A DNA stretch of 64,000 nucleotides from Aquisediminimonas profunda (GTDB taxonomy: Bacteria > Pseudomonadota > Alphaproteobacteria > Sphingomonadales > Sphingomonadaceae). Under the pieces are notes generated by a model, which searched no databases, was not told the origin of the DNA, and saw only the letters and a list, made by a program, of their open reading frames with translations. The position numbers and the translations under genes are program-made. Shown here one piece after another: positions 29,409-53,871 of the stretch. The stretch is from assembly GCF_019443285.1 (NCBI RefSeq), contig NZ_CP080327.1, positions 2,724,001-2,788,000 on the forward strand, read 5' to 3'. Position 1 is the first letter of the stretch. Each line of letters begins with the position of its first letter.

Positions 29409-30683
29409 TCAGGCCGGGCGTCTTGCATACCAGCCAAAGCAGGCGATGACGCCGTAGCAGAGGGTGGGAAGGACAAGACCAGCTGCAAGACTTCCACTGG
29501 CATCTGCAATCATGCCAGTCAGCAGAGGAACGACCGCGCCGCCAAAAATGGCTACGTTTATGAGGCCCGAACCATCTGCCGCTCGCGGACCTAGTTTCTC
29601 GCAAGCCAAAGTGAAGATTGTCGGGAACATGATCGAATTCATCAGTCCGATGGCCAACAAGCTGTAACCCGACACAATACCTGTCGTCTGTGTCGAAACG
29701 GTAATCAGCGCGACTGCGCCGACAGCGACGGAGGCCAAAACAAGTCCGGGGCTCAACACACGCAGAACTGCCGATCCGATAAATCTCCCTACCATGGCAC
29801 CGCCCCAGTAGAGCCCAATCAATTTGCCGGCTTCTTGAGCCTCAAGCCCCATGACGTGCGGCTGCATCAAGTAGTTGACGATCAGCGAACCGATTGAAAC
29901 TTCGGCCCCCACATACAGGAATATGCACAAGGCACCGAAGCCAAACCTGGTGCGTTTCAGAAGATCAAGCCCGGCCAAACCGCTGCTTTCTTCATGCCTT
30001 TCGTTCTGCAGGGCATTGCGGAAATACCAGACCGCAGAAGCGACAATTGCCAGTGCAACCGAAAGCCCGAGGTAACCGTGGACGATCGCTTGGCTCTCGG
30101 CGGTGCGATATGCATCAAGTGCGGCCCCCGAGAGCCCCTCTGCCGAAACAGACGCCAGCCCGCCGAGGATAAGAATAGACCCGAAATAAGGAAAGATTGT
30201 CGTTCCAAGGGAATTGAAAGCCTGCGCAAATGTGAGCCGACTATGTGCCGTCTCAACCTTGCCCAACAGGGAGATCAAAGGATTGGAAACAACCTGTACT
30301 ATGACAACACCGCTTGCCAGCACAAACAGTGCAAGAAGAAATACGCCATAAGTTGCTGTCTGGCTCGCAGGTATGAACAAGAGGCAACCGACCATCATTG
30401 TCAGAAGTCCGGCTACCGCCCCCCTCATATAGCCTATCCGCTTGACCAAACGGGCTCCCGGGATGCCGATGACCGCATAGGCGGTGAAGAAGCAGAACTG
30501 CACCAGCATCGCCTGGGTGTAGCTCAACGTGAACAGTTCCTTGAGTTTCGGAATGATAACGTCATTCAGGGAAGTGATTCCGCCAAAGGTAAAAAACAGC
30601 CCCATCACAAATAATTGCAACTGTGGCGCATCGACCTGTTCAGATGGCTTCCCTGTTGTCGGGCTATTTGATGAAAATGCCAT
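29409..30683 (-). CDS. FHS family sugar:H+ symporter (glucose/galactose/fucose type)
   Basis: 424 residues from ATG 30683. N-terminal motif FVMGLFFTFGGITSLNDVIIPKLKELF is the FHS-family hallmark. TYGVFLLALFVLASGVVIVQVVSNPLIS and LTFAQAFNSLGTTIFPYFGS match GluP/FucP transporters. Its Shine-Dalgarno is a run of nine G residues 6 nt before the ATG, an unusual slippage-prone tract. It lies 55 bp downstream of the GH3 gene and would import the glucose released by GH3. Confidence 0.9.
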   Translation of the reverse strand: MAFSSNSPTTGKPSEQVDAPQLQLFVMGLFFTFGGITSLNDVIIPKLKELFTLSYTQAMLVQFCFFTAYAVIGIPGARLVKRIGYMRGAVAGLLTMMVGCLLFIPASQTATYGVFLLALFVLASGVVIVQVVSNPLISLLGKVETAHSRLTFAQAFNSLGTTIFPYFGSILILGGLASVSAEGLSGAALDAYRTAESQAIVHGYLGLSVALAIVASAVWYFRNALQNERHEESSGLAGLDLLKRTRFGFGALCIFLYVGAEVSIGSLIVNYLMQPHVMGLEAQEAGKLIGLYWGGAMVGRFIGSAVLRVLSPGLVLASVAVGAVALITVSTQTTGIVSGYSLLAIGLMNSIMFPTIFTLACEKLGPRAADGSGLINVAIFGGAVVPLLTGMIADASGSLAAGLVLPTLCYGVIACFGWYARRPA

Positions 30684-30738: not shown

Positions 30739-33216
30739 CTATGCTTTCGAAGGGCATGACAGATTCTCGCCAACGGCCTCAACGCGCGCTGCGAGCAACG
30801 TCAGGGCAAGACCCTTGTCACCGCTCAAACTGAATGGCTCGTCGACCTGCTTGAGGTTCGCGCCAGCGTCCGCGAAGCAGCGAAGTGGAATCCTGATTGT
30901 CCGCACCTGCCCCAGAGGAGATGCGCGCACGAGCGCGCCGACATCAAGTGCGATCTTGCCCAATGAAATTGAAGTCGTTCCGGAAGGCGCAGAATCGATC
31001 CGCCAATCGATGCGCAAAGCAAAGCTGTTATTGAGTTGGCGCGTCAAATCAGCACTCGGTCCCGTCAAGTGGAAAGAGGCTATGCCCGTCCAAGTGAAGG
31101 CCCTGCCATCCTCCTGAGCAGCCACATCGACAGAGCGCGTTCTGATATGCCCATAACCGCTCTCGAGCGGCGTCGTACCAACTTGTCGCGCGCCCCCCGC
31201 ATCGACGATCGATAAAGACCAGGGCGACCGTGCGCGCCCGCCCGAAAAGAAATTCTCGACGTTCAAAAGGTCAGCGATGTTCACGCCGGTCTTTTCAGAA
31301 AGCTTCGGGACCGACTTCCTTTCTGCATAGGTCAAGCCATAGCCAACCTTGAATTGTGGCTTGATAACTGGCGATCGCGCATCACCGGGCCAGGCAAAGG
31401 GAAGTTTGCCTGTAAAATCGCGCATAACTTTGCCGTCCTTGCCGGCCACAAGCACATCGGCAATCCCTTGTCCCTGCGAACCCGGAAGCCAAGCCGCTAC
31501 AAATGCGTCGGCAGCATTGATTTCAGGATTGGCAAACAAAGGCCTGCCCGAGAGAAAAACTGCAACAACCCGAACTCCAGCCGATTTCAGCTTCTTGAGG
31601 GTTGCCAAGGCAGTCGAACCTGTTGGCTGATAATCGAGGGTCGGAACATCGCCCTGAAACTCGGCATATGGGGACTCGCCAAAAACGACGACAGCGACAT
31701 CAGGCTTTTCCTTATAATCCCCATTTTCGGAAAGGGACGCTGTACCGCCGGCATCTCGCACTGCCGCTCCCATGGCTTCCCAGATTGTTTGACCGTTTGG
31801 AAAGTCTGCATGTGTTACATCGGCGCCCTGCCAACTGATTGTCCAGCCACCTGACTGCATCGCCATGTCGTTAGCCCCAGGGCCGGTGATCAAAACTCGC
31901 GACCCGGGCTTGATCGGCAAAGCGCCGCCATTATTCTTGAGGAGCACAAGAGACTTTGCAACGGCCTCGCGCGCAATCGCTAGATGCTCCGGTGATCCGA
32001 CGGTGGCGACATCGCCGCGTTCGACATGTCTCGCGTCAAACAGACCGAGTTTGAACTTGACGCGCAGAATACGCCGCACGGCATCGTTCAGCCTCTCAAT
32101 GCTGACCCTTCCATCCCTGACTTGTGCAAGAGTGGTTTCGAACAGTCCTTTCCAACTGTCGGGCGCCATAAACATGTCTAGACCAGCCATAATCGATTGA
32201 GGACAATCAGTGACATTGCACCCTTCGACCTGACCATGCCCGTTCCAGTCACCGACCACGAAACCCTGAAAGCCCATTTTGCCCTTTAGCGCATCTGTCA
32301 GCAGCGACTTGTTGCCGTGATTCTTGACACCATTCCAGCTGGAGAAGCTTGCCATCACAGTCAGCGTGCCAGCGTCGATTGCCGCCGGATATCCTTGCGC
32401 ATGCGTTGCTATCAGGTCCGTCTCGCTGATCCTTGCGTCGCCTTGATCCTTCCCTCCAAGGGTGCCGCCGTCTGCAAGAAAATGCTTGGCCGTGGCAGCG
32501 ACATGATGTGCGTCAATCGATTGTTCGACCGCAAGCGGGCCTTGAAGCCCAAGGACCATAGCCTTGGCATAAGCCGCAACGAGTTTGGGATCTGAAGCAT
32601 AGCCTTCATAGCTTCTGCCCCATCGCAGATCCTGAGGCACAGCCAATGTCGGTGCAAAGGTCCAGTCGATACCTGTTCCCGCCACTTCTGAAGCGGTCGC
32701 GCGGCCAATCCGTTCTATCAAATCAACATCACGTGTAGCTCCAAGACCTATATTGTGCGGAAATATCGTCGCGCCTGGAACGTTGGAGTGACCATGTACT
32801 GCGTCAATGCCAAACAGGATGGGTATTTTGGCCCCTGAGTTGAGCGATGCGGTTCGGAATTCATTTACAAGCCGCTGCCAGGTGCTGCCATCCGCGCGCT
32901 CATTGCCATAAGGCCCAGAATTTCCTCCAGCGAGAATTGAGCCTAGCGGATACTTTGCAAGATCGGCCGGAACGATTGTGCTGATGTCCGCCTGAATCAC
33001 CTGCCCAACTTTTTGCTCCAAGGTCATCCCCGACAATACTGCCGAGATTGCAGTCTCCGTCGAAGGATCAGTGATCGCGTCAGGACTGCTGGCAATCGGC
33101 CACCGATCGGGATGTGCTTGTGCTGAATGTTCGCTTGTGGAATTTGCCTGAGCTGTCGCTGCAAAACATGCCGACAACATTGCGAACAGGAACAAAAACG
33201 TTTTCCTGAAAGGCAT
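30739..33216 (-). CDS. GH3 family exo-beta-glucosidase, exported
   Basis: 825 residues from ATG 33216, which opens a signal peptide (MPFRKTFLFLFAMLSACFA-ATAQA) and has GGGGAAG upstream. GH3 motifs: GIDAVHGHSNVPGATIFPHN (N-domain), KHFLADGG and GFVVGDWNGHGQVEGC with the nucleophile Asp. The second domain (VLLKNNGGALPIKP) and a C-terminal beta domain follow. It matches the exo-1,3/1,4-beta-glucan glucohydrolase type. It removes glucose from beta-glucan oligosaccharides in the periplasm. It has its own LacI operator (33238-33249). Confidence 0.94.
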   Translation of the reverse strand: MPFRKTFLFLFAMLSACFAATAQANSTSEHSAQAHPDRWPIASSPDAITDPSTETAISAVLSGMTLEQKVGQVIQADISTIVPADLAKYPLGSILAGGNSGPYGNERADGSTWQRLVNEFRTASLNSGAKIPILFGIDAVHGHSNVPGATIFPHNIGLGATRDVDLIERIGRATASEVAGTGIDWTFAPTLAVPQDLRWGRSYEGYASDPKLVAAYAKAMVLGLQGPLAVEQSIDAHHVAATAKHFLADGGTLGGKDQGDARISETDLIATHAQGYPAAIDAGTLTVMASFSSWNGVKNHGNKSLLTDALKGKMGFQGFVVGDWNGHGQVEGCNVTDCPQSIMAGLDMFMAPDSWKGLFETTLAQVRDGRVSIERLNDAVRRILRVKFKLGLFDARHVERGDVATVGSPEHLAIAREAVAKSLVLLKNNGGALPIKPGSRVLITGPGANDMAMQSGGWTISWQGADVTHADFPNGQTIWEAMGAAVRDAGGTASLSENGDYKEKPDVAVVVFGESPYAEFQGDVPTLDYQPTGSTALATLKKLKSAGVRVVAVFLSGRPLFANPEINAADAFVAAWLPGSQGQGIADVLVAGKDGKVMRDFTGKLPFAWPGDARSPVIKPQFKVGYGLTYAERKSVPKLSEKTGVNIADLLNVENFFSGGRARSPWSLSIVDAGGARQVGTTPLESGYGHIRTRSVDVAAQEDGRAFTWTGIASFHLTGPSADLTRQLNNSFALRIDWRIDSAPSGTTSISLGKIALDVGALVRASPLGQVRTIRIPLRCFADAGANLKQVDEPFSLSGDKGLALTLLAARVEAVGENLSCPSKA

Positions 33217-33237: not shown

Positions 33238-33249
33238 GTGAACGTTCTC
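33238..33249. promoter_or_regulatory. LacI-type operator before GH3
   Basis: GTGAACGTTCTC in the context TTTTGTGAACGTTCTCATT, 11 of 12 positions identical to the TBDR operator. A TTGACT-like -35 lies just upstream on the minus strand. It indicates that GH3-FHS-antiporter is a second unit of the same regulon. Confidence 0.65.
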
Positions 33250-33290: not shown

Positions 33291-34484
33291 TCAGTTCCGA
33301 CAAAAAGGCTTCCCGAGCATCAAACCTGCCGTCGCAGCAAGTATTGCCAGCAAGATGAATAGAACGGAAAAGCCAAAAAGCGGGACCAACGCCATGACAA
33401 ACCACGGCATGACCAGTGACGGAATTGTATTGGCAAGATTGAACAGTCCCAGGTCTCGGCCCCGGCGATCTGGCCGAGGAAGGACCCGAAGCGTTTGTGC
33501 CGAATGGAGCGCAAGGAAAACCGCACTTGATAAACCAAAAAATGCATACCCCAGAATTGCGCTGACCAAGTCTTTGGCAAAAACCATGACTGCAAGACCA
33601 CCCGCGGCCACCAACGCGCATGTTTGCAGCGGTCGGATCGGGTGACCGGTAGTGTCAGACCAGCGACCAATGGCCAGGGTGAGAGGAGCCGAAATCAGCA
33701 TAATTGTGCTGAACAGCCGAGCTGTCTGATTGTCGGTCACGGCAGGATCAATACTGGTTAGCCAAAAGAACAAATATGCGAACAGGGTCGCTTCCGCCAC
33801 CTGAACTGCAAGCCGTGCGAACCACATGCGAACAACTGGCGAAAACCGGAATGAAACGTGCAGGGCCGCTTGCGAGATAAAAGTGCCATTGGTCACCCTT
33901 TGATTGGGCATTGTCGGCGCGGGCAGTATGAGGACCGGCAACACACAGAGTGCAACCAATCCCGCCACGAGCAATAACCTGCTGTCATGCGCTGCCAAAC
34001 CTGGTTGGGTTACGACAGCCCCAGAGAGCGCACCTAACCCCGGCGCAAATGCCATGAGGCCGCCGAGCAGTCCCTTACGATGGTCTGGCACAATATCGCC
34101 TGCCCAAGCTGTTAAGGGCCCTAGCATCATATTCAGCGCAAGCTGCCAGCCCACGATCGCGGCGATCAACTCGCCGAGTCCTCTTGCGTGACCAATTTCG
34201 ATGAGCATGACGCAGGACAGAACCAGTCCGCCAAATATCCATCCACGCCTGTTGCGCGTCACATCGCTCAGATAACCAAAGACCACGCCCCCGAAGCTAG
34301 CGGCGACAGCCCCTGCCAGGGCAATAGTGCCAAGCCAGTCCACACCAAGCTGCTTGCCCGCCAATCCCGCAACCATAACCGGCAACAAAATGGTGAGAAG
34401 CGGTGTATAGGCAATCGCTCCACCAGCCCAAGCCAGCGCATAAAGCAGCACAAATCGATCTATCGCCAGATTTTTGTCAGGCAC
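33291..34484 (-). CDS. MFS transporter (oligosaccharide type)
   Basis: 397 residues, twelve membrane segments. GVVFGYLSDVTRNRRGW is the loop 2-3 MFS motif A variant, and DIVPDHRKGLLGG and RPDRRGRDLGLFNLANTIPSL are cytoplasmic loops. It overlaps the LacI gene by 8 bp. Context suggests uptake of beta-glucan oligosaccharides over the inner membrane. Family assignment beyond MFS is not possible by eye. Confidence 0.88.
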   Translation of the reverse strand: MPDKNLAIDRFVLLYALAWAGGAIAYTPLLTILLPVMVAGLAGKQLGVDWLGTIALAGAVAASFGGVVFGYLSDVTRNRRGWIFGGLVLSCVMLIEIGHARGLGELIAAIVGWQLALNMMLGPLTAWAGDIVPDHRKGLLGGLMAFAPGLGALSGAVVTQPGLAAHDSRLLLVAGLVALCVLPVLILPAPTMPNQRVTNGTFISQAALHVSFRFSPVVRMWFARLAVQVAEATLFAYLFFWLTSIDPAVTDNQTARLFSTIMLISAPLTLAIGRWSDTTGHPIRPLQTCALVAAGGLAVMVFAKDLVSAILGYAFFGLSSAVFLALHSAQTLRVLPRPDRRGRDLGLFNLANTIPSLVMPWFVMALVPLFGFSVLFILLAILAATAGLMLGKPFCRN

Positions 34485-35541
34485 CCGAATTGCCCGGAGG
34501 CGGAGCGACAGATTCGCGTTCGGTAATAGTCGCTGAAACCACAGTCAGCTCAGGTGTAACTTGATCGCCTTTTTGGGCCGCAATTATCAGCTCAACTGCC
34601 TTTGAAGTTGTTGCCGCAATCGGCTGGTCGACGGCTGTCAACGGCGGTTGCGTGAAATGAACGAGCGGGGTGTTGTCAAAACTAATCAAGGAAAGTTCGT
34701 CTGGTACAGCAATCTGCAGCAAACGCGCCACTTCCAAAGTGGCCAACGCCATCTGATCATTGCTTGCGATGATTGCGGTGGGCCGCATGGGCGCTTCCAG
34801 CAATTGCCGCGCCGCTGCCTCACCGGAAGCGTAGCTGAAGTCCCCCTCAGCCAGCAAGCCTTCATAATCGAGGCCTGCAGCGGCCATCGCCGCCTTCCAG
34901 CCATTCACGCGCCAGCCGCTCAGGGCATAGTCACGAGAGCCCGAAATGAATCCGATTCGACGATGTCCTCGGTCGATCAGGTACTGGGTTGCCTGTGAAG
35001 CTGACCCCTCATCATCCATCGATACGGGAATGCCTGCACCGTTCTGGATTGAGCCAATCCGAACGAAGGGAATTCTCTGGTGGTGGAGCAAGGCAACAAT
35101 TTGCGCATTGTCCGAATGCGGCGGTGTCAGGATTATCCCATCAGGCTGAAGCGCCGCAATTGCCCCCAACAATTCGCGCTCGACATGATCGGAATGTGTA
35201 TCAACCAGTTCGAAAATCATTCGGTATCCGTGCTCTGCACACTTCAACATCCCGCCAAGCAGCATTTGGTCGACCCAATCCGTGCCCTGACGGGCCCGCC
35301 AATCCTCAATCGTGCGATCACGATCATTTATTGCAAGTATCAGATATGAACGCGACCCACTCATGCGCTGTGCAGCGAGGGACGGCACATAACCCAGTTT
35401 ACGAATAGAATCCTGAACGCGTTCCCTCATTTCGGGGCGCACATTGGCTTCGTTGTTGATAACACGGCTCACCGTCTGCAACGAGACGCCAGCATCAGCT
35501 GCCACATGCTTGATCGTGACGGCTTGGCGACGTCTGGCCAT
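34477..35541 (-). CDS. LacI family transcriptional regulator of the glucan locus
   Basis: 354 residues. The N-terminal HTH (VTIKHVAADAGVSLQTVSRVIN) and hinge helix (LGYVPSLAAQRM) are classical LacI. A periplasmic-binding-like domain follows, with IIASNDQMALATLEVARLL and ISFDNTPLVHFTQPPLTAV. Its ATG directly follows the GH16 stop (TAAATG). It lies in the middle of the operon. The GTGAACGTTCAC sites at the TBDR and GH3 promoters resemble LacI operators and are its likely targets. Probably a repressor released by a gluco-oligosaccharide. Confidence 0.93.
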   Translation of the reverse strand: MARRRQAVTIKHVAADAGVSLQTVSRVINNEANVRPEMRERVQDSIRKLGYVPSLAAQRMSGSRSYLILAINDRDRTIEDWRARQGTDWVDQMLLGGMLKCAEHGYRMIFELVDTHSDHVERELLGAIAALQPDGIILTPPHSDNAQIVALLHHQRIPFVRIGSIQNGAGIPVSMDDEGSASQATQYLIDRGHRRIGFISGSRDYALSGWRVNGWKAAMAAAGLDYEGLLAEGDFSYASGEAAARQLLEAPMRPTAIIASNDQMALATLEVARLLQIAVPDELSLISFDNTPLVHFTQPPLTAVDQPIAATTSKAVELIIAAQKGDQVTPELTVVSATITERESVAPPPGNSGA

Positions 35542-36480
35542 TTATTGTCTGCCCCCTTTTTCGACCGTGCCTGCTCGCCCAGCCTCCTTCTGCCAAATGC
35601 GCACCCAGTCAACCTCCATCTGCTTGGGGTAGTCGTCAAACCGTACTCCTCCGAGCCCTCGGCTTTCAGCCAGCTTGCCGCCAATCGCGAGGTTGAGGAT
35701 CAGGTGGAAGGGTTGATCAAAGGGAGCACCCGGTTCGGCTGATCCCGAGGTTGACCAATCCTTCGCTGTGCGCACAGCATAGGTGCGTCCATCAACCTGC
35801 CAACTAATTTGATCATGAGTCCACTCAATCGCATAAGTGTGGAATTCCTGATCAAGCACCTGAGGGAAAGAGACTTCCTCACCTTTATGAACGTTCTTCG
35901 GCCACTGACCGCCGAAATGAAGAGTGCCAAGAATGGTATTTTCTCGACCTCCTGGGCACTTGGTGCACGCTACGCCAAGGTTGACTGCTTCGAGAATATC
36001 GATCTCCCCTGAAGCAGCCCAACTGCCATAGCGCTCTTTCTCTGGCAGCATCCAAATCGCAGGCCAAGTTCCCTGTCCTTGAGGAAGTCTCGCATTGACC
36101 TCAACTCGACCATATCGCCATGCCGCCTTGCCGCGGGTTGTGAGACGAGCGGAACTAAATTCCCGCGCAACCACGGCAAGCGGCAAGGGCGAGCTTGTGC
36201 GAAGATGAACCGGCAACGCGAGACCTGTTGTCCGTTCATGTCTTGCAGTGATTACGAGTTTGCCATCCTTGATGACAGCATTGCGCGCACTTCGGGTGTA
36301 GCACTGGCGCTCTTCATTGCCGCCTCCCCAGCAATCGACATCGAATCCCCACTTCCTGCTGTCGATTTTCTTCCCGTTGAACTCGTCAGACCAGACAAGC
36401 ATCCAATCCTGAGCGCTCACGGTATTTGCGTTGAACAGCAAAATCACGGCGGCGGCGCACTTGCGGCTACAAGATATCAT
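35542..36480 (-). CDS. GH16 endo-beta-glucanase (laminarinase type), exported
   Basis: 312 residues from ATG 36480, which overlaps the halogenase stop by 4 bp (ATGA). Signal peptide up to VSA-QD. WSDEFNGKKID is the usual GH16 opening. WPAIWMLP and SGEIDILEAVN (the E-x-D-x-x-E catalytic motif: nucleophile Glu and acid/base Glu) follow, then LGTLHFGGQW, HTYAIEWTHDQI and LNLAIGG. It matches GH16_3 beta-1,3-glucanases. With GH3 it forms the minimal laminarin-degrading pair. Confidence 0.94.
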   Translation of the reverse strand: MISCSRKCAAAVILLFNANTVSAQDWMLVWSDEFNGKKIDSRKWGFDVDCWGGGNEERQCYTRSARNAVIKDGKLVITARHERTTGLALPVHLRTSSPLPLAVVAREFSSARLTTRGKAAWRYGRVEVNARLPQGQGTWPAIWMLPEKERYGSWAASGEIDILEAVNLGVACTKCPGGRENTILGTLHFGGQWPKNVHKGEEVSFPQVLDQEFHTYAIEWTHDQISWQVDGRTYAVRTAKDWSTSGSAEPGAPFDQPFHLILNLAIGGKLAESRGLGGVRFDDYPKQMEVDWVRIWQKEAGRAGTVEKGGRQ

Positions 36481-37979
36481 TCCGCTGCAATGTCCTTCGC
36501 TCCGCAGTAACGGGCAACATAGGCATGATGTTCGGGCATCGAAGCGACCGTCTTGGAGACATTGTCGCGCAGGCCGGTCAATAGCTGGTCGAGCTCCTCG
36601 CTCGAAAGCTTTGTAGCAACCGGGTGATAGGCGCGCGGCAGTATCCCCTGTCCCATCATGACCTGGACCCAACTGTTCTCTGCGAACAGCTCCTCATTCT
36701 TTCGGAAAACACGCCCAGTCTCCCGGAAGAGTTCGATCTTCTGCGTTAGGCTGTCGGGGATTTCCATAGTGGCACATTGCCGCCAAAACGGGCTGTCGCG
36801 CCGTTCGGTGGCCTTATAATGAAGAATAAGGAAGTCGCGCACCTGCAGCATATCGGTATGCTGCTGGTCATTGAACTCCGCTACATCGCGCTCACTGACC
36901 TCGCCCATCGGCAACATGCGGATAAGCCGCAGCACGGCACGTTGGATGAGGTGGATACTTGTCGATTCGAGCGGCTCCATGAACCCGCTCGAAAGGCCGA
37001 CGGCGATGCAGTTGCGGTGCCACTGCTTGCGCCGCGCGCCCGTTGTGAAACGTATGAAGTTGGGCTCGGTCAGCCGCTCGCCCTCGACACTTGACAGCAA
37101 CCGATCGAGCGCAGACTCGCGATCAAGGTAACGGCTGCAATACACGATGCCGTTGCCTTGGCGATGTTGCAGCGGAATGCGCCACTGCCAGCCTGCATCG
37201 TGGGCAATTGCGCGCGTATAAGGGATCGGCGGGCGCACGCTAGTGGTCTGAACAGCGATGGCCGCGTCGCACGGTAGGTAGTGGGTCCAGTCATCATAAC
37301 CGACATGCAGAGCCCCTTCGATCAGTAACGCGCGAAAACCGGTGCAGTCGAGAAACAAGTCACCTTCGATTCGTTGCCCGGATTCGAGCAGCAGTGCGGC
37401 AATATGCCCGGTATCGCCGTTTAGCTGGACCTCGGCAATCTTGCCTTCGACCCTCCGCGCGCCATCGGCTTCGGCCAATTTGCGCAGGAAAACCGCATAA
37501 AGCGAGGAATCGAGTTGGTAGGCATAATTAACCCTGTTGTCCGGCAGATGTGCGAACCGACTGGCAAAGGCCGCCTTCAATTCAAGACAGTAGTCGTCGT
37601 AACTCGCTTTGTGCCCCTTAGTTTGTCCGTGCATCCAAAAGTGCTGGAACCCGGCAGACCAATGATCAAGTCCCGTAAGGCCAAAGGAATGAAAGTACCT
37701 TTCGCCCTGAACCTTCCAGTTCTCAAATGCGATCCCGAGCTTGAACGTCGCCTGGGTTGCGCGCATAAAATCGGTTTCGCCAATCCCGAGCAGGCGATTA
37801 TATGTGGCTAGCGGAGGAATTGTACTTTCGCCAACACCGATTGTGCCGATGGCATCGGATTCGACCAAGGTCAGCTCAATTGCATCCCCTAATGTCCGTG
37901 CCAACGCGGCTGCGGCCATCCAGCCCGCAGTTCCACCGCCGGCAATAACGACGCGCTGCTTTTTATATTCGCCCATCAT
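36477..37979 (-). CDS. flavin-dependent tryptophan-halogenase-like protein 1
   Basis: 500 residues. VVIAGGGTAGWMAAAAL is the FAD-binding GxGxxG box. GIGVGESTIP and ATFKLGIAF (candidate catalytic Lys) are halogenase motifs. GWQWRIPLQHRQGNG is the WxWxIP motif, and GFMEPLEST is the conserved late loop. It overlaps the JmjC gene by 4 bp and GH16 by 4 bp. Family knowledge: relatives are often next to TBDR genes in Alphaproteobacteria and their natural substrate is unknown. No indole-biosynthesis context is present. Confidence 0.9.
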   Translation of the reverse strand: MMGEYKKQRVVIAGGGTAGWMAAAALARTLGDAIELTLVESDAIGTIGVGESTIPPLATYNRLLGIGETDFMRATQATFKLGIAFENWKVQGERYFHSFGLTGLDHWSAGFQHFWMHGQTKGHKASYDDYCLELKAAFASRFAHLPDNRVNYAYQLDSSLYAVFLRKLAEADGARRVEGKIAEVQLNGDTGHIAALLLESGQRIEGDLFLDCTGFRALLIEGALHVGYDDWTHYLPCDAAIAVQTTSVRPPIPYTRAIAHDAGWQWRIPLQHRQGNGIVYCSRYLDRESALDRLLSSVEGERLTEPNFIRFTTGARRKQWHRNCIAVGLSSGFMEPLESTSIHLIQRAVLRLIRMLPMGEVSERDVAEFNDQQHTDMLQVRDFLILHYKATERRDSPFWRQCATMEIPDSLTQKIELFRETGRVFRKNEELFAENSWVQVMMGQGILPRAYHPVATKLSSEELDQLLTGLRDNVSKTVASMPEHHAYVARYCGAKDIAAE

Positions 37980-39007
37980 CGGCTAAGAGTCCTCAGTAGA
38001 AAAGAACGCAAACGTCCTGCAGATTCAACATCCAGCGGATCGAGAATTCCGCGGGCACCAACTGGAATATGGTTGGTTACCTCTGGCCCATTGTCGAAAA
38101 CGTAGTGTTCGAACATCGCACGCCAGATCGCTTTGTCTTCGTGCGGAAGGTCACGAATCGAGAGAATTGCATGATTTAGCGCATCCTGTGGCTGTCCGAG
38201 GAAGCGCGGCGTGTTCCGCCACCAATAGTTGAGCAGGATGTTGAACGGCGCAAGACCTTCTACATGGTGCCACCACATCGACGGGATGAAGAGCGCATCA
38301 CCTGGCTCCAGTTCTGCCAGTTGGGCTTGCTTGAGTGCGTCCGCAAAGCCTGGATGCAAATTGAAGTCTGGCGCATGGAAATCGACCATGCTTACCGCGC
38401 GGCCAGCAGGGGTATTATCAATTGGCCCGAGGTAGAGATTGCGAATCTGGTCGGGCGGAAAAAGGGTGAAGCGACGTCGGCCTGCAACACAACAAGCCAA
38501 GTTATCGGGAAAATCGTTATGTGCCGCGATGCGGGTCGGCGTACCAATCCACAGGCTCTCCAATGGCTCGCGCGTACCAAGTTCGAGACGGTTTTCCTCG
38601 TGCACACCAACAAAATGCGTTGGGATGTCGATCGAACCGAGGTAGACGGTCGGCGAATCAGCGCGACCCTCATTGGCGTCAAAGCCACCAAAAATATCGG
38701 CCAGCTTGCCGCGTGCGGTGCGGAAATTCATTTCCATCGCACCATCATAAAACATCCGGCCATTGTGACCCGGCGGGCCGATCGAGACGGCAAACGGCAC
38801 TGATCGAGCGCGCTCAAGCAGATAAGTCCGTGCATCTCGCGCCGAGCGCAGGCTTGCTTGAACCAGCGGCCAGCCGGAAACCAATCCGCGAATGACAAAA
38901 GGTGCACGCGCACCCTGCAAAAGTGCATCCAGAGCCGAAGCGTCAACAGCCTCACGCTCCACAACTGCCGGTATGGAGGCAAAAATTGAGGTGTCGACCT
39001 CAGCCAC
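37976..39007 (-). CDS. JmjC/cupin-like domain protein (cupin_8)
   Basis: 343 residues from a GTG at 39007 that overlaps SapC by 8 bp; upstream extension reads through SapC antisense to its family start, so GTG is preferred. PFVIRGLVSGWPLVQ is the typical cupin_8 entry. IGTPTRIAAHNDFPDNLACCVAG contains the HxD Fe ligands, and DALFIPSMWWHHVEGL the third ligand. It is a Fe(II)/2-oxoglutarate hydroxylase-like fold. It overlaps halogenase 1 by 4 bp. The role in the TBDR cluster is unknown. Confidence 0.87.
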   Translation of the reverse strand: MAEVDTSIFASIPAVVEREAVDASALDALLQGARAPFVIRGLVSGWPLVQASLRSARDARTYLLERARSVPFAVSIGPPGHNGRMFYDGAMEMNFRTARGKLADIFGGFDANEGRADSPTVYLGSIDIPTHFVGVHEENRLELGTREPLESLWIGTPTRIAAHNDFPDNLACCVAGRRRFTLFPPDQIRNLYLGPIDNTPAGRAVSMVDFHAPDFNLHPGFADALKQAQLAELEPGDALFIPSMWWHHVEGLAPFNILLNYWWRNTPRFLGQPQDALNHAILSIRDLPHEDKAIWRAMFEHYVFDNGPEVTNHIPVGARGILDPLDVESAGRLRSFLLRTLSR

Positions 39008-39719
39008 CGGCCACCCGAGCGTTCTTGCGCGCAACCAGTTCGGAAAACTGAGCAACAGACGCCAGCGCCATGAAGATCGGCAGCAGATACCCCTGAGCAT
39101 GAAGCGCGCCCAGCGCTTCACCCTCCAGCGCAGCAAGACGGCGTTCGTCAATCGTTTGGAAGCCGACGAGCGAATGCTTGGAACCGTCATTCAGCGGCAC
39201 TTCAAGAGTAAACGGTTCCAGCAACTCGTAGCGCTCTAACGCCGCAAAGAAATCTGTACTTTCGCGATAACCTTGATCGAGATCGCCTAGCTTTTCGGCA
39301 ATAGCTTCGAGATAGGGCGTAGGCATGCCATTTTCATCGAAGACGCGGGTACCTTCACCACTCTGCGAAATGCGAGGATGGCCCATATCCACATGAACCT
39401 GCGAATCAGCGCCATCAGTTGCAGAACGACCGATAAGAAAGGGTTGGATGGCAAGTGCCAGAGGCCTATACCTTGCATCCCAGCGATCTCCCTCAAGGAA
39501 GAGGTTCTCACCATTTTCGAACCCAAAAAGCGCGAGAGCGGAGAGCTTGTCGCTTTCGAAATCGCGGCGAAACACGATCGGGAAGTGGCCCTGAACCTGA
39601 AGAAACTCTGGAGGCACGGTGAGGCAGGCCATTACGTTATCGCCGTACGCCACCCCAATGTCGGTGCGCACCCTGAGATCAAGGTGATCTGAGTTGTTGA
39701 GGATCTGGTGCTTTGTCAT
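39000..39719 (-). CDS. SapC family protein
   Basis: 239 residues from ATG 39719 (ATGA overlap with halogenase 2). [25 protein letters not shown] is the SapC N-terminus. [33 protein letters not shown] and the C-terminal [24 protein letters not shown] are also family-typical. Named after a Campylobacter S-layer locus gene, but in Alphaproteobacteria the family sits next to TBDRs and halogenase-like genes. No signal peptide. Function unknown. Confidence 0.9.
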
Positions 39720-41266
39720 CGGCTGGCAAATTCTCCATGTGTCGCCCTTGGCTCGGCTTGCGCGGAAGCAGCGACGAAATAGTCCCGGTTCGCCGGCAAT
39801 GCTGCCGCAAGTGCCCGGCCTCTCTCCCGCACATCGACCAGACGTGCAGCAGCTGCGGGCGTGGCCATTATGCCTTGGCTCGGTGCCGGAAACTTCATGC
39901 CATAAAGCACATACTGTTGGCTGGCTGCGGAAAATATCTCGTTGACGCGGGGCAAGTCCCAAATCGTGGGAGGTTGCTCTGCCCACAGAGCAAGGTTTTC
40001 AGACAGACGCACAGGTATCGTTTCAGGTGCACGCTGCGCCTGCCAATAAGGTTCATTGCGCCGGCTGAGCACGTAGTGCAGCTTGAGAAACTCAACGATC
40101 CGGTCCCAACGATAGCGAAACAGCTCATTGAAGCGCGCGGCATGGATGCTCATGGTCGTGCGACTAGCTGGAAAGTTTTCCGCCAATGCCGTCAGCGACA
40201 ATTCAATCAGTACGATTGCCGATGCCTCGAGTGGCTCGATGAAGCCTGCTGAAAGCCCAACCGCCAGGCAATTGCGTTCCCAGAATCGGGCGCGATGACC
40301 GGTGGAGAAGGAGAGCTTGCGTGGTGACAGCTGGTCAACATCGACCCCAGGCATATTTACGCGCAGGTAGCCCAACAGGATTCGCTCCGAATCCTCGTCC
40401 GCCAGAAAACGTGAGCTGTAGACACAGCCGATGCCGCGGCGCGTGGGCAGTGCAATGTCCCATAGCCAACCAGCCTCATGCGCTGTTGCGATGGTCTGGG
40501 AGGCCACCGGGCTATCCAATGTCACCGGTACCTGCACAGCCAGCGCGCGGTCGTTGAATGAGACGTCCGAGCGGTCTATCCAGTCGACACCTAACTCCCC
40601 GCTAATAAGGATCGCGGCCTGTCCTGAGCAATCGAGGAAGAAATCGCCAACAAGTCTTGAATGGCTTCGAAGTTCCAGCGCGACTATGTCGCCGTTCTCG
40701 CCTGTAATTACCCCAGTTACATCATCATAAATTCGCGCAACCCCAAGGCGCTCAGTAGCATGCCTTGCGAGTAGAGCAGCAAACTTGCCCGCGTCCAGAT
40801 GGTAGCCATAATTTAACGCTCCAGAATAGTCGGGCATTGTGCGCTGACGTGGCGCGAGATTGCGCGCGCAGATTGCATGTTGTGCAGTCATGGCGGCGGC
40901 GAATGCAGTGCCTTCTGCTTCTGCCTGCCAGGCAGCAAGGAGCTCGCGCATGTCGCCCTGGGGGGGGTGGGTGAAAGGGTGAAGGTAGCTGTCGGTCGCA
41001 GACCCGTCGACCCATCCGTCAAAGCGCGAACCCTGCTTGAATGAAGCATCGCATTCACGGAGGAACTCAGCCTCCGAAATCCCTATTGTTGCCAACGTGT
41101 CCCGCATGGTCGGCCAGGTTCCTTCGCCCACGCCGATAGTTGGGATATTGGGCGATTCGACCAAGGTGATCGCCAGTGTAGGGTGCCTGGCTGCGAGGAC
41201 GCAGGCTGATAGCCAACCTGCCGTACCACCCCCGACAATCGCAACTTTTTGCACTGATCCGTTCAT
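39716..41266 (-). CDS. flavin-dependent tryptophan-halogenase-like protein 2
   Basis: 516 residues from ATG 41266. [17 protein letters not shown] is the FAD box; [10 protein letters not shown] and [12 protein letters not shown] (candidate Lys) follow. The WxWxIP motif appears as [13 protein letters not shown], a variant with an altered [13 protein letters not shown] is the conserved loop. It differs clearly from halogenase 1, so this is a two-paralogue locus. It follows the TBDR after a 108-bp gap containing a hairpin. Confidence 0.9.
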
Positions 41267-41305
41267 AGGTCTTTCACCGGGAAGCCTACCCGTCTCCACT
41301 ATGCG

Positions 41306-41344
41306 GAAAGAGAGCCGCACCGGCAACCAGTGCAACTCTCTTTC
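41306..41344 (-). other. intercistronic hairpin TBDR-halogenase 2
   Basis: Arms GAAAGAGAG (41306-41314) and CTCTCTTTC (41336-41344), with inner GCAC/GTGC pairing. No U-run follows on the minus strand. Like the hairpin after the first TBDR, it may lower downstream expression or protect receptor mRNA. Confidence 0.55.
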
Positions 41345-41374
41345 TTTGGACCCTACTGGCTCCGGCCATTTGCC

Positions 41375-44338
41375 TTAAAAAGTAAACCGAACTCCCCCCG
41401 AGTATCGGGCATAACCTGGTGCCGCAAAGAAGATGGCGCGATCATTACGTCGCACGCCGGTGCGGTCCGCATTGGTAATGTTGATCCCTTCCACGAAAAC
41501 GGTCATGCCTTTCCGGAATTCATAGCTCGCACTCACGTCGAACTGACCATAGGACTTGATATAATACGGGTCCTGGTCCTTGCCGGAGAGAAACTTGTCA
41601 CGCCAGTTGTAGGCAACACGCGCCTGCAAGCCGTTCTTGTCATAAAAGATCACCGCATTGGCACTGTTGCTCGCGCCCGGGACGGCAAATTGTGTCACAG
41701 TCCACGGCAAGGTGTTGTTGAAAGCGGTGTCACTCTGCACAACCGTGTAGTTTAGGATTGCACCGAAACCGGTCTCCCAGAAATTGTGCTGGATGGCGAA
41801 TTCCCAGCCCCATAGCCGCGCCTTCTGATTACTATTGGCTGGCTGGGTATAAGTAAAAATCACGTTGGGGTCGCTGGAACGACCGACAATACCTCCAGCC
41901 GTGCCGACTCCTGCAACAAAATCAGCAGGGCGGTTGGCGCTAACCCAAGCTACAATCTGATCGAATGATGCGCCAGCACCCAAAGCTTGGCGCGCCGCGG
42001 TCGCAGCCCCACCCTGTGATGGGTCTGGCAAGTTGAACAACGGCGTCTGTATGGTGTTGTTGGCGATGAAGTTGCTGACATCTTTGCTGAAGAAGCCGAC
42101 AGATACATAGCTCGACTTGTCATAGTACCACTCAGCCGACAGATCGATGTTCTTCGATTTGTATGGCAGAAGCCCCGGGTTGCCCGCGCTGGCCTGACTG
42201 CCACCGGCCCCGACCCGCAGCGGCTGGCCCAAAGTGATACCTCCCTGCATGCTGGCATAGTCAGGGCGGGTAATGGTGTGGCTGTAAGACGCGCGCAACT
42301 TGACGTTGTCCCAAGGCGACACATCAAAGTCAAAGGCCGGCAGCCAGCTATGGTATTTACCCTTTAGCGTGGTGGTACTGCCGGGCGTGCTGACCAGACT
42401 GATTTCGTTCTGGGCAACCCAGATTGTCCCGGTCGGGACATCGGCAAGTGCGGTCGAGGTCACCTTAGTTTCCTCATAACGCAGGCCGAGGCGCAGATTG
42501 GCCTCGGCGTCTCCGAGGTTGAATGAATGGAACGTCTGTATCCAGGGAGTAATAGACTTTTCTTCGATGTGACGGTCCGTTGTGTAAGGCGCAAGGCAGG
42601 TGTCACCTGGAGCGCGATTACAGATGCCGAGCCGCGAATCGAGCAGTTTGATCAGGCCGACGGTATCGATCAGGAAATAGTTGGGAATGATGCCGGCAGT
42701 GCTTGATCCGTTCATCCCGGCCAGATCTTGCGAAAGACCCCGCGAAGTGAACAGGGAGTCGGGCGTCTCTGCTGCAGTAAGCGTGCCACCCCAGGTATCA
42801 TTCTGGATGACACCGAAGGCTGTGCGCACCTTATTGTCGAGATAGCCGACCCCGAAGTCGAGCGTCTTGATGAAGGATGTATCAAAGTCAAACCCGCCGT
42901 GCAGGCTCACCTGGTCGATCGTATCCTTCATGTAGGCGTTACGAAAAGCATTGCCGGCAGGGCGGATATTTCCTGCATTGATCTCGGAACCGGGATACAT
43001 CGTCACCGAAATCACCGGCATATCTGTGGTAAAATCGACCCGCTGGCTCGCGACGCCGAAGATCGCCGTTCCGACCGCGATGCCGCTACCGTACGGCGAA
43101 GTCGGCTTGGATTCTGCCGTCGAATGATGACCGTCGAGCTCAAGCTTCAGGCCAAACGGAGCCTCCCACTTGATATTGCCGCCGATCGAATGGTTGACGT
43201 TGCGGTTGTTGCCGACTGCACCTGTAATAGCGAGATCCTTGCCAGGACCAAAAACTTCCGAGTAAAAGTTTGCGCCCGCAGCGGGACCGTTGGTCCAGCT
43301 GCTTGAGGTGTCGCCGTGGTTGAACCACACACCAATGCTATTCTGACGGCTGTCAAAGCTATTCTGCGAAAAGATGTAGTCGACCGCCATGTTGAGCGTA
43401 TCGGTCGGCTTGAACTGAATTACGGCCTGACCGTTGATGCGCTCGCGCGTGAAATCGTAAAAGTCATAAGCAGCATTCTGGGGGACCTGATAGACGTCGG
43501 TCGGCCCGGGGCGGTTCTGGATATTGGCATAACGAGGGTCGCCCGCCTGTGCGAGAGTACCCCAGTTATTTTCGGCGCCCGTGTAGCCGGGGCGCCAGTT
43601 GCCCACTGTAAACTGCGCTTGGCCCCCGCTACGCTTCTGATACGACCCAGCAACAAGGATACCGATTGTGTCATCGGCAAAGGTAGCACTAACGATACCC
43701 GAAATCTCGGGAGTCACATCGGTGCCATAGAGCTGCGAAGTGTCGTAGACCCCCTTCACACCGATACTGCCCTTCAGTCCGGGCCGATCAAGAGGACGCG
43801 GCAGCTTGATGTTGATGACCGAGCCAATGCCGCCAGTAGGAAGCGATGCTCGGCCCGACTTGTAAACCTCGACCCCGGCCACACCTTCAGCAGCAAGGTT
43901 GCCGAAATCGAAGCTGCGCGAGGACGGCGCAGAGAAGCCGTCACCGAGCGTCGAAGTCGGCATCTGCCGGCCATTGACTACGACAAGATTGAATTCAGGA
44001 CCGAAACCGCGAACGGTGACCGTCGAGCCTTCCCCGCTTTGCCGGTCGATCGACACGCCGGTGATACGCTGCAACGATTCCGCGAGGTTTGTATCAGGGA
44101 ACTTGCCAATATCTTCGGCCGATATGGCATCCACCACACCTTGCGCTTCGCGCTTGATTTCCATCGCATCGCGAAGGCTGGCGCGGATCCCAGATACAAT
44201 GATCTCTTCGCCTTCGTCCTGCACCTTTTCGGCTGCGGGCTGCTCTTGAGCAAAAGCGACACTCGGCAATGAGCAAAATGCAAAAACCGATGCTCCCAGC
44301 ATCAATTGAGTGGCCATGCGCTCGATGTGAATGCTCAT
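41375..44338 (-). CDS. TonB-dependent receptor of the beta-glucan locus
   Basis: 987 residues. Signal peptide to AFA-QE, then EEIIVSGIRASLRDAMEIK (TonB box plus the SGIR/R-x-S-L-x-D-A signature of Caulobacter/sphingomonad carbohydrate TBDRs). Plug motifs: VDAISAEDIGKFPDTNLAESLQRITGVSI and VVVNGRQMPT. The barrel ends GGVRFTF with terminal Phe. Ribosome site AGAGGGGGG. It would import laminarin-type oligosaccharides. First gene of the operon; promoter bracketed by two LacI operators. Confidence 0.95.
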   Translation of the reverse strand: MSIHIERMATQLMLGASVFAFCSLPSVAFAQEQPAAEKVQDEGEEIIVSGIRASLRDAMEIKREAQGVVDAISAEDIGKFPDTNLAESLQRITGVSIDRQSGEGSTVTVRGFGPEFNLVVVNGRQMPTSTLGDGFSAPSSRSFDFGNLAAEGVAGVEVYKSGRASLPTGGIGSVINIKLPRPLDRPGLKGSIGVKGVYDTSQLYGTDVTPEISGIVSATFADDTIGILVAGSYQKRSGGQAQFTVGNWRPGYTGAENNWGTLAQAGDPRYANIQNRPGPTDVYQVPQNAAYDFYDFTRERINGQAVIQFKPTDTLNMAVDYIFSQNSFDSRQNSIGVWFNHGDTSSSWTNGPAAGANFYSEVFGPGKDLAITGAVGNNRNVNHSIGGNIKWEAPFGLKLELDGHHSTAESKPTSPYGSGIAVGTAIFGVASQRVDFTTDMPVISVTMYPGSEINAGNIRPAGNAFRNAYMKDTIDQVSLHGGFDFDTSFIKTLDFGVGYLDNKVRTAFGVIQNDTWGGTLTAAETPDSLFTSRGLSQDLAGMNGSSTAGIIPNYFLIDTVGLIKLLDSRLGICNRAPGDTCLAPYTTDRHIEEKSITPWIQTFHSFNLGDAEANLRLGLRYEETKVTSTALADVPTGTIWVAQNEISLVSTPGSTTTLKGKYHSWLPAFDFDVSPWDNVKLRASYSHTITRPDYASMQGGITLGQPLRVGAGGSQASAGNPGLLPYKSKNIDLSAEWYYDKSSYVSVGFFSKDVSNFIANNTIQTPLFNLPDPSQGGAATAARQALGAGASFDQIVAWVSANRPADFVAGVGTAGGIVGRSSDPNVIFTYTQPANSNQKARLWGWEFAIQHNFWETGFGAILNYTVVQSDTAFNNTLPWTVTQFAVPGASNSANAVIFYDKNGLQARVAYNWRDKFLSGKDQDPYYIKSYGQFDVSASYEFRKGMTVFVEGINITNADRTGVRRNDRAIFFAAPGYARYSGGVRFTF

Positions 44339-44393: not shown

Positions 44394-44450
44394 GTGAACG
44401 TTCACTTCCTGTAATCGCCGATCAATGTCAAGCACAAATAGAACGTTCAC
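44394..44450 (-). promoter_or_regulatory. TBDR promoter flanked by two LacI operators
   Basis: Operator 1 GTGAACGTTCAC (44394-44405) is a perfect 12-bp palindrome. Operator 2 (44439-44450) reads GTGAACGTTCTA on the minus strand. Between them the minus strand has a TTGACA -35 box (44431-44426), with a poor -10 about 17 bp on. One site upstream and one over the start region, 45 bp apart, suits repression by looping or by double occupancy. Confidence 0.7.
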
Positions 44451-46491: not shown

Positions 46492-48084
46492 TCAGTTGAG
46501 GCGGAATCCGGCAGCCCATGCCGCATACGTGCCGTCAAGATGACTATCGAGCGCGCCGCTGGTTGTCGGAAAACCGCCTGAAAGCGTATAGCCACCAACA
46601 AATATGTTCAATCCATCTGGCGAGATCGCCGAATCCCGAGCGGAATCCTCGGCGGAGCCCCCTAGGAAAGTGAAATAACGAAGCGACGACAAATCCGACG
46701 ATAGGACTGCAACGAAACCATCCAAACCGCCTCCAAGCCTCGCCTGAGGCACACCTGCCGTCGCCGACAAGTTGCTCGATGATGTTTCTCCGCTGATCAC
46801 AACAGCATCAGCTGAGCCATTGCGGTGCAACACATTTATGCCCTGGACCATTTCATCCCCGCTACCGCCAAACAAGCTGGACGCAAGCAGGCGCGATCCA
46901 TCGGCTGACAGTATAGAGACGAAAGTGTCGGACCGTCCACCGAACTGCGGCTGCAGGACGTTAGCGGTGACTGGAAAATTGACCGATTGCGTAGAGCCCG
47001 TAACATAAATGCGCCCGACATTGTCGATCGCGAGAACGTGGGTCTCAATATCCTCGTTCTGTGAGCCGCCCAGATAAGACACAAAGCCGATTTGGTCATT
47101 GGATGAAAACTTCATCACCACCATGTCGGCGCCGCCTGCGTTGCGCGATTGATAGGATCCGGGTGTTGTCGCGATGCTGAGACCCTTGTCAACTGAGGCA
47201 ACAGCGACGCCACCATTGGGATCGACACGTATTGATGCGACCCCTGTCGATTGTCCCTGGTAGCCGGGCGACCCACCAAAGTAGGTTCCGTATTCTGCAT
47301 GCGTCGCGTCTGCACTCAAGCGCACATATGCAGCGTCGCGGCCGTCCTGAATCGTCTTCTGCCAAGCATTGGCTGTAATGAAGGACGTTATCGGCAGGCT
47401 GACATTCACAACGGCGAGATAGGCCCTGCCTTGTGCATCAATGTCAATATCGCGCAGAAATGCGTCACCCGCATCGCCAACATAGGTTGACCAGATCAGA
47501 CGACTGCCATCGGCACTGAGCTTCGCAACGAACCCGTCCTGCTGCCCATATTGTGCGTTTGGCGTGCTATCGCCCGCAAAGTTGGGTTGCACTACGCCTG
47601 CGGTGGTTGGAAATCCGGGTCCAGCCCTGCCTCCCACATAGACAGAACCGTCGGTGCCGACGCGGACAGCATAGGCGCGTTCATAATTTGGCCCGCCCAG
47701 AAATGTAGACCAAATGATGTGACCATCGGGTGCCATTTTTACCACAAATGCATCGCTGGCGCCTTGCAAGCCAACGGCGCTTCCACCGCCACCAAATGAG
47801 CGGTCATAGGCACCCGCTGTGGTCGGAAAATCGGATGCAGTTGTTCCGCCGACCAAGTAAATATTGCCTTGGGCATCAAGTGCAACGCCACGCGTTTCTT
47901 CGTATCCGCTGCCCGATGCGCCATCCAGCAAGGTGGAAAACGTCAAACCCGTAAGCGGCGGTGGTGGCGAAGGAGAGGGCGTTGGTGTCGGCGTAGGCCC
48001 CGGCGGCGTAGCTTGCGTTCCTCCGCCGCCGCAGCTCGCTAGCGCAAGCGCCAGCGCCGCAGTCAAACCAACACATCTGACCAT
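46492..48084 (-). CDS. SBBP beta-propeller repeat lipoprotein
   Basis: 530 residues. The lipoprotein signal ends LALASC (Cys 18), followed by GGGG and a Pro/Thr/Ser linker (PTPTPSPSPPPP). The body has at least seven SBBP-type repeats with the pattern GVALDAQGNIYLVGGT-x-S-x-FPTT-x-G-A and WSTFLGG-x-x-E. These are expected to form a beta-propeller on the cell surface. Ligand unknown. It is monocistronic, between the dehalogenase-like gene and an IS remnant. Confidence 0.88.
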   Translation of the reverse strand: MVRCVGLTAALALALASCGGGGTQATPPGPTPTPTPSPSPPPPLTGLTFSTLLDGASGSGYEETRGVALDAQGNIYLVGGTTASDFPTTAGAYDRSFGGGGSAVGLQGASDAFVVKMAPDGHIIWSTFLGGPNYERAYAVRVGTDGSVYVGGRAGPGFPTTAGVVQPNFAGDSTPNAQYGQQDGFVAKLSADGSRLIWSTYVGDAGDAFLRDIDIDAQGRAYLAVVNVSLPITSFITANAWQKTIQDGRDAAYVRLSADATHAEYGTYFGGSPGYQGQSTGVASIRVDPNGGVAVASVDKGLSIATTPGSYQSRNAGGADMVVMKFSSNDQIGFVSYLGGSQNEDIETHVLAIDNVGRIYVTGSTQSVNFPVTANVLQPQFGGRSDTFVSILSADGSRLLASSLFGGSGDEMVQGINVLHRNGSADAVVISGETSSSNLSATAGVPQARLGGGLDGFVAVLSSDLSSLRYFTFLGGSAEDSARDSAISPDGLNIFVGGYTLSGGFPTTSGALDSHLDGTYAAWAAGFRLN

Positions 48085-53851: not shown

Positions 53852-53871
53852 GGTAGTTCCCCCCAAGAAGT

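Follow-up and report, generated by a model that had tools for sequence, protein, structure and literature searches.

Five consecutive minus-strand genes at positions 44338–36477 of a 64,000-nucleotide stretch (the window) of the complete, 3.4-Mb genome of Aquisediminimonas profunda (contig NZ_CP080327.1, positions 2,724,001 to 2,788,000) encode, in transcription order, a TonB-dependent receptor (TBDR), a flavin-dependent halogenase-like protein (Hal2), a SapC protein, a JmjC protein and a second halogenase-like protein (Hal1). Our leading, still tentative reading is that Hal2-SapC-JmjC-Hal1 is a modification cassette dedicated to one clade of TBDRs that import glycans, and we infer that, before export takes place, it probably modifies either the receptor or a close partner chemically. 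This reading builds on the order of the cassette and its conservation, catalytic residues that are intact, one operator that is itself conserved, and the linkage of the cassette to a receptor clade.

Profile matches agree with the gene order and family names that a preliminary description of this DNA had given for the TBDR, Hal1, Hal2, SapC, JmjC and the adjoining glycoside hydrolase family 16 (GH16) gene. The receptor (41375–44338, minus strand like the rest of the operon; 987 amino acids) belongs to the TonB-Xanth-Caul family, with a TIGR01782 score of 591 bits against a cut-off of 310 and a plug and 22-strand barrel in its AlphaFold model (pLDDT 88.9). Hal2 (39716–41266; 516 amino acids) and Hal1 (36477–37979; 500 amino acids) match PF04820 at 381 and 621 bits, SapC (39000–39719; 239 amino acids) matches PF07277 at 217 bits over the full profile (1–220/220), and the JmjC protein (37976–39007), an FIH-like Cupin_8 protein resembling Fe(II)/2-oxoglutarate oxygenases, matches PF13621 at 220 bits. 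The genome encodes no full-length PF04820 protein other than Hal1 and Hal2, and the TBDR of the operon is its sole receptor over the TonB-Xanth-Caul cut-off. The overlaps of 4–8 bp described earlier across five genes hold for four of them, running from Hal2 through GH16 (Hal2/SapC, JmjC/Hal1 and Hal1/GH16, 4 bp each; SapC/JmjC, 8 bp, given a JmjC start at GTG 39007, or 191 bp from the alternative start ATG 39190), whereas the TBDR and Hal2 are separated by 108 bp to ATG 41266 or 39 bp to TTG 41335. With these overlaps and a TBDR–Hal2 gap of at most 108 bp, the cassette has no space for a precursor gene of the type used for ribosomally synthesized and post-translationally modified peptides (RiPPs), and the compact layout recurs in other loci, likewise without such space.

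Alignment of Hal1 relatives yielded 80 halogenase-anchored loci, which were examined together with as much as 10 kb of flanking sequence. The exact order TBDR-Hal2-SapC-JmjC-Hal1 on one strand is present in 26 of the 80 and TBDR-SapC-JmjC-Hal1, without Hal2, in 14, so that an ordered cassette occurs in 40/80 loci across Alpha-, Beta- and Gammaproteobacteria, amid variable flanking genes; the remaining layouts are TBDR-Hal2-Hal1 (4), TBDR-Hal1 (18) and other or truncated forms (18). Hosts include Sphingomonas, Sphingopyxis, Massilia, Alteromonas, Shewanella, Colwellia, Pseudoxanthomonas, Xanthomonas and Teredinibacter. An old, ordered and widespread unit of this kind argues against the preliminary description's picture of a module fused, as a special case, into a laminarin locus. 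That description had also suggested a neighbourhood survey, and the families do co-occur with TIGR01782 TBDRs: among 40 related genomes sampled without anchoring, 20 of the 23 Hal1-type genes have such a receptor within 10 kb, where chance would give about 1.3%, and of the three that do not, two sit on contigs for which no TIGR01782 receptor is listed. 'Tryptophan halogenases' next to TonB receptors occur in many environmental Proteobacteria. Searches of the openly accessible literature found no description of the ordered cassette or of what it does; the component families are all known, and specialists may already be acquainted with the neighbourhood.

The cassette follows the phylogeny of the receptor. 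When the 138 TBDRs of a receptor tree, a sample biased by halogenase anchoring, were labelled as carrying the SapC cassette, a halogenase only or neither, the cassette label changed 11 times compared with 63.8 times after shuffling. SapC-cassette receptors form one clade spanning three proteobacterial classes, the core of which (52–54 members) contains 0 of 48 cassette-less receptors; the receptor of locus L206 is a near sister. Genes neighbouring the SapC cassette encode LacI, GH3, GH16 and GH17 proteins, pointing by sequence family to beta-1,3-glucan, and two loci in relatives (L050 and L094) combine the GH16-LacI-GH3 set found here with a less elaborate halogenase complement. Around the remaining, mostly Hal1-only, loci are GH13, GH77, GH97 and sugar transporters, which for this reduced TBDR-Hal1 form point to starch or maltodextrin, that is, to an alpha-glucan. 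Since both kinds of neighbour are found, the sugar varies while the receptor–halogenase pairing persists: the cassette tracks a receptor clade, not laminarin or one sugar, and this lends support to the receptor-directed role that the preliminary description had suggested. Mantel correlations for co-inheritance (0.72–0.90 for the cassette) were equally high for the neighbouring LacI; they indicate no more than shared ancestry and were dropped as cassette-specific evidence. In several alpha-glucan loci (L198, L199, L200 and L203), one Hal1 gene is flanked by two TonB receptors.

We identified a perfect palindrome, GTGAACGTTCAC, at 44394–44405, 56 bp upstream of the TBDR start, which is a probable LacI operator; its form is typical of the LacI family, and binding is predicted from the motif. 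It occurs as a single copy in the whole genome, precedes the TBDR with at most one mismatch in five related Sphingomonas and Sphingopyxis cassettes (L126–L130) and hardly occurs in 3.35 Mb of other loci. A site both unique and conserved before the TBDR supports the earlier view that one LacI regulator couples these genes. A weaker operator-like site, GTGAACGTTCTA (44439–44450, two mismatches), lies 45 bp upstream of GTGAACGTTCAC, and a motif match with one mismatch, GTGAACGTTCTC (33238–33249), lies upstream of the GH3 gene. A consensus promoter scan reported no sigma-70 site upstream of the TBDR; a TTGACA box is present between the two operator-like sites there.

Both halogenases retain the PF04820 hallmarks, namely the GxGxxG motif for flavin adenine dinucleotide (FAD), the catalytic lysine, WxWxI(P) and the EPLE glutamate. 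The tryptophan motif reads WQWRIP in Hal1 and WLWDIA in Hal2, where alanine replaces the proline. The lysine is K80 in Hal1, conserved in 121 of 129 aligned Hal1-type copies, and K77 in Hal2, conserved in every aligned full Hal2. With the JmjC triad (H163 and D165 of the HxD motif, and H247) the catalytic residues of all three enzymes are intact and activity is predicted. Degenerate paralogues lacking the lysine sit amid intact copies in multi-halogenase receptor clusters (L085:8606-10135, L088:10544-12064, L176:6908-8458 and L192:8420-9964) and are possible pseudo-enzymes or scaffolds.

Several crystallized halogenases belong, by sequence, to the cassette type. The nearest solved structure to Hal1 is Xanthomonas campestris Xcc4156 (PDB 6y1w), with 58% identity to Hal1 and up to 70% to Hal1 of full five-gene cassettes; Brevundimonas BrvH (6frl) has 46% identity over the region compared, and both share the Hal1 catalytic motifs. 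Hal2 is closest to 9LTB, a 'tryptophan halogenase' structure of Hal2 type (67% identity over the aligned part) for which no paper was found in the openly accessible literature; 2PYX, likewise deposited as a 'tryptophan halogenase', shares 95% identity with the Hal2 protein of a cassette from Shewanella (L147), and 9LUQ comes nearest to the Hal1 proteins of alpha-glucan loci. Xcc4156 and BrvH were studied as stand-alone indole brominases, in papers without the TonB or SapC context seen for Hal1. Neither accepts free tryptophan; both brominate indole, BrvH with low activity, and peptides were proposed as substrates for their open sites (PMC5945002, PMC7336383). The best structure matches of Hal1 by sequence are these open-site enzymes, not the free-tryptophan halogenases RebH and PrnA. 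Free-tryptophan halogenases (PrnA, RebH and Thal) are characterized by a lid loop gripping both the amino and the carboxy group of their substrate. Because Xcc4156 and the more distant BrvH reject free tryptophan and have open sites, a free-tryptophan product of Hal1 or Hal2 is, by analogy, unlikely, in line with the preliminary description, which had argued against a natural product.

The HxD..H centre of the JmjC protein is conserved throughout the aligned copies, placing it in the Fe(II)/2-oxoglutarate family; its nearest solved structures are FIH, TYW5 and JMJD5, with which it shares this centre and an LFPP stretch. FIH hydroxylates asparagine in ankyrin repeats and HIF. SapC yields a confident model (pLDDT 96.5) with no match in the PDB or BFVD (Foldseek, E ≤ 0.001); this is possibly a new fold and was set aside as a clue to function. 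SapC proteins occur in 49/240 Alphaproteobacteria; most are of a distant, generic form that has no TBDR or halogenase beside it. One such generic copy lies in the A. profunda genome far from the cassette (G000:C1:1325361-1326017; L076). The generic copies have no recurrent neighbour, and their surroundings were dropped as a functional clue. A DUF6445 gene (PF20043; L145:11545-12201, and also in L147, L141, L178, L195, L148, L157, L168 and L204) mostly directly follows Hal1. The encoded sequence has an HxD...H...R pattern resembling that of 2-oxoglutarate oxygenases, which makes the protein a possible additional enzyme of the cassette; the gene is absent from A. profunda, which rules it out as a missing member of the cassette there.

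Hal1, Hal2, SapC and JmjC show no apparent signal peptide and appear cytosolic as read from their sequences, which means that a modification of the receptor would have to take place before it is exported. On our reading, glucan would release the LacI repressor, and the receptor, the enzymes, GH16, GH3 and the transporters would be co-produced. In the cytoplasm, FAD-dependent Hal1 and Hal2 would then act on the receptor while it is nascent and unfolded, brominating, chlorinating or oxidizing its aromatic side chains, with tryptophans that end up on the extracellular side as the likeliest targets; the JmjC enzyme would add a hydroxyl group, SapC would serve as a substrate adaptor or holding factor, and the modified receptor would be exported afterwards. 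A precedent is QhpG, a flavoprotein that dihydroxylates peptidyl-tryptophan, modifying its protein in the cytoplasm before transfer to the periplasm (PMC7876137). QhpG is a distant relative: the cassette halogenases score 29.8 and 35.2 bits where the NCBIfam cut-off is 240, which places them outside the QhpG type, and QhpG works with a radical SAM enzyme and a protease in place of SapC and JmjC. MibH (a distant relative, at 179 bits) and SrpI also halogenate tryptophan inside peptides; their targets are RiPP precursors, whereas the cassette has no precursor peptide.

Comparison of the receptors points to candidate sites. All 45 cassette receptors compared have W338, W516 and W912, and 93% have W640, whereas in 48 cassette-less receptors these tryptophans are found at 2–10%. 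Cassette-specific columns make up 43 of the 147 conserved in cassette receptors and all four of the conserved tryptophan columns (nominal p 0.0066, uncorrected), tryptophan being the sole residue type nominally enriched. All four tryptophans are missing from the receptors of L205 and L206, which come from a genome without any full halogenase. The AlphaFold model of the TBDR places the four at extracellular strand ends or outer loops, with the sides inferred from strand order. Sequence and model together are thus suggestive of W338, W516, W640 and W912 as modification sites. Whole-protein tryptophan enrichment (1.36% versus 1.02%) was rejected as evidence, as it is not tree-independent. The fullest version of the proposal, an ancient and widespread post-translational system that halogenates or oxidizes specific tryptophans (these four being the candidates) and hydroxylates residues of outer-membrane receptors for glycans, SapC being an adaptor with a new fold, seems to us doubtful as a whole.

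Several observations weigh against a receptor-modifying cassette. Within the 40 related genomes, 19 of 68 TIGR01782 receptors are accompanied by a halogenase, so most of the family functions without one. The tryptophan correlation holds at the level of the clade and is not tree-independent (five independent pairs, not significant), and sugar binding or stacking could also conserve surface tryptophans. Divergent cassette receptors (L048 and L061) retain mainly W338 or part of the four-tryptophan set. The alpha-glucan, Hal1-only receptors have no invariant tryptophan (none at 90% or above), which rules out one universal target across all halogenase-linked receptors. Cytoplasmic modification of an outer-membrane protein would also be unusual.

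The lack of a universal tryptophan is one reason to consider that the cassette might modify a different protein or a ribosomal peptide encoded elsewhere, such as a surface glycan-binding protein or a receptor-associated envelope client. The peptide-type logic of these enzymes (the open sites of Xcc4156 and BrvH, and QhpG) and their apparent cytosolic location fit such a client; however, the cassette contains no other conserved small gene or client, its only constant partner is the TBDR, and we regard this alternative as unlikely, albeit the strongest of the four considered. Ranked after it, and somewhat less probable, is action on an aromatic or indole-like small molecule entering with, or made from, the glycan, as a catabolic or detoxifying side branch. 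TBDR operons usually encode enzymes that act on what is imported, free indole is brominated by homologues, and the second 2-oxoglutarate oxygenase-like protein, DUF6445, follows Hal1 in several loci. Yet the Hal1 family accompanies both beta-glucan and alpha-glucan systems, which share no common aromatic substrate, and the turnover of indole is low and regarded as non-natural.

Operon inertia, by which an unrelated housekeeping unit would simply have been inherited with the receptor, would account for part of the co-inheritance, given the equally high LacI correlations. It fares poorly against the retention of gene order across classes while other neighbours vary, and against the correspondence of two cassette forms to two receptor clades, and strikes us as very improbable. 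We give least credence to a halogenated natural product, or hypohalous acid, made for competition or defence during glucan feeding: the family resemblance to PrnA and RebH suggests it, but a family scan found no natural-product biosynthetic genes in the operon, close homologues reject free tryptophan, and the pairing with a sugar receptor is strict. The same scan of operon proteins found no S-layer genes that would match the S-layer export role associated with SapC. The requirement for cytoplasmic action, the QhpG precedent and the lack of room for a precursor peptide together lead us to prefer a receptor-dedicated cassette over these alternatives.

If the receptor is indeed modified, this would be a new kind of outer-membrane protein maturation and could affect the uptake of algal and plant glucans by marine and soil bacteria; a system acting on receptor tryptophans would also explain the orphan halogenases Xcc4156, 2PYX and 9LTB, and possibly BrvH. 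Placing orphan crystallized halogenases in one ordered receptor cassette, with candidate receptor peptides named, makes the long-open question of their substrate testable. The cassette is otherwise a variation on a carbohydrate TBDR locus, and categorically new biology is possible should receptor modification hold. Xanthomonas carbohydrate-utilization (CUT) systems likewise combine a TBDR, glycoside hydrolases, an inner-membrane transporter and LacI in one locus; the paper on them makes no mention of the four modifying or unknown cassette genes.

Downstream of Hal1, also on the minus strand, are genes for a GH16 beta-glucanase (35542–36480; PF00722; 312 amino acids, apparent signal peptide), a LacI-family regulator (34477–35541; PF00356/PF13377), a major facilitator superfamily (MFS) transporter (33291–34484; PF07690), a GH3 beta-glucosidase (30739–33216; PF00933/PF01915/PF18559) and an MFS sugar transporter of glucose/galactose type (29409–30683; TIGR01272, over cut-off). 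GH16 and LacI abut, and LacI and the first MFS gene overlap by 8 bp. The GH3 protein resembles exo-beta-1,3/1,6-glucosidases, its top NCBIfam match, with a score under the cut-off. With the TBDR, GH16, GH3, two MFS transporters, LacI and a unique operator, the region is a carbohydrate-utilization locus of the CUT or polysaccharide-utilization type, for which shared control is predicted. At 46492–48084 and 51539–53866, outside the operon and apparently unrelated to it, the window encodes a large predicted SBBP beta-propeller-repeat lipoprotein and a NorB-type nitric oxide reductase.

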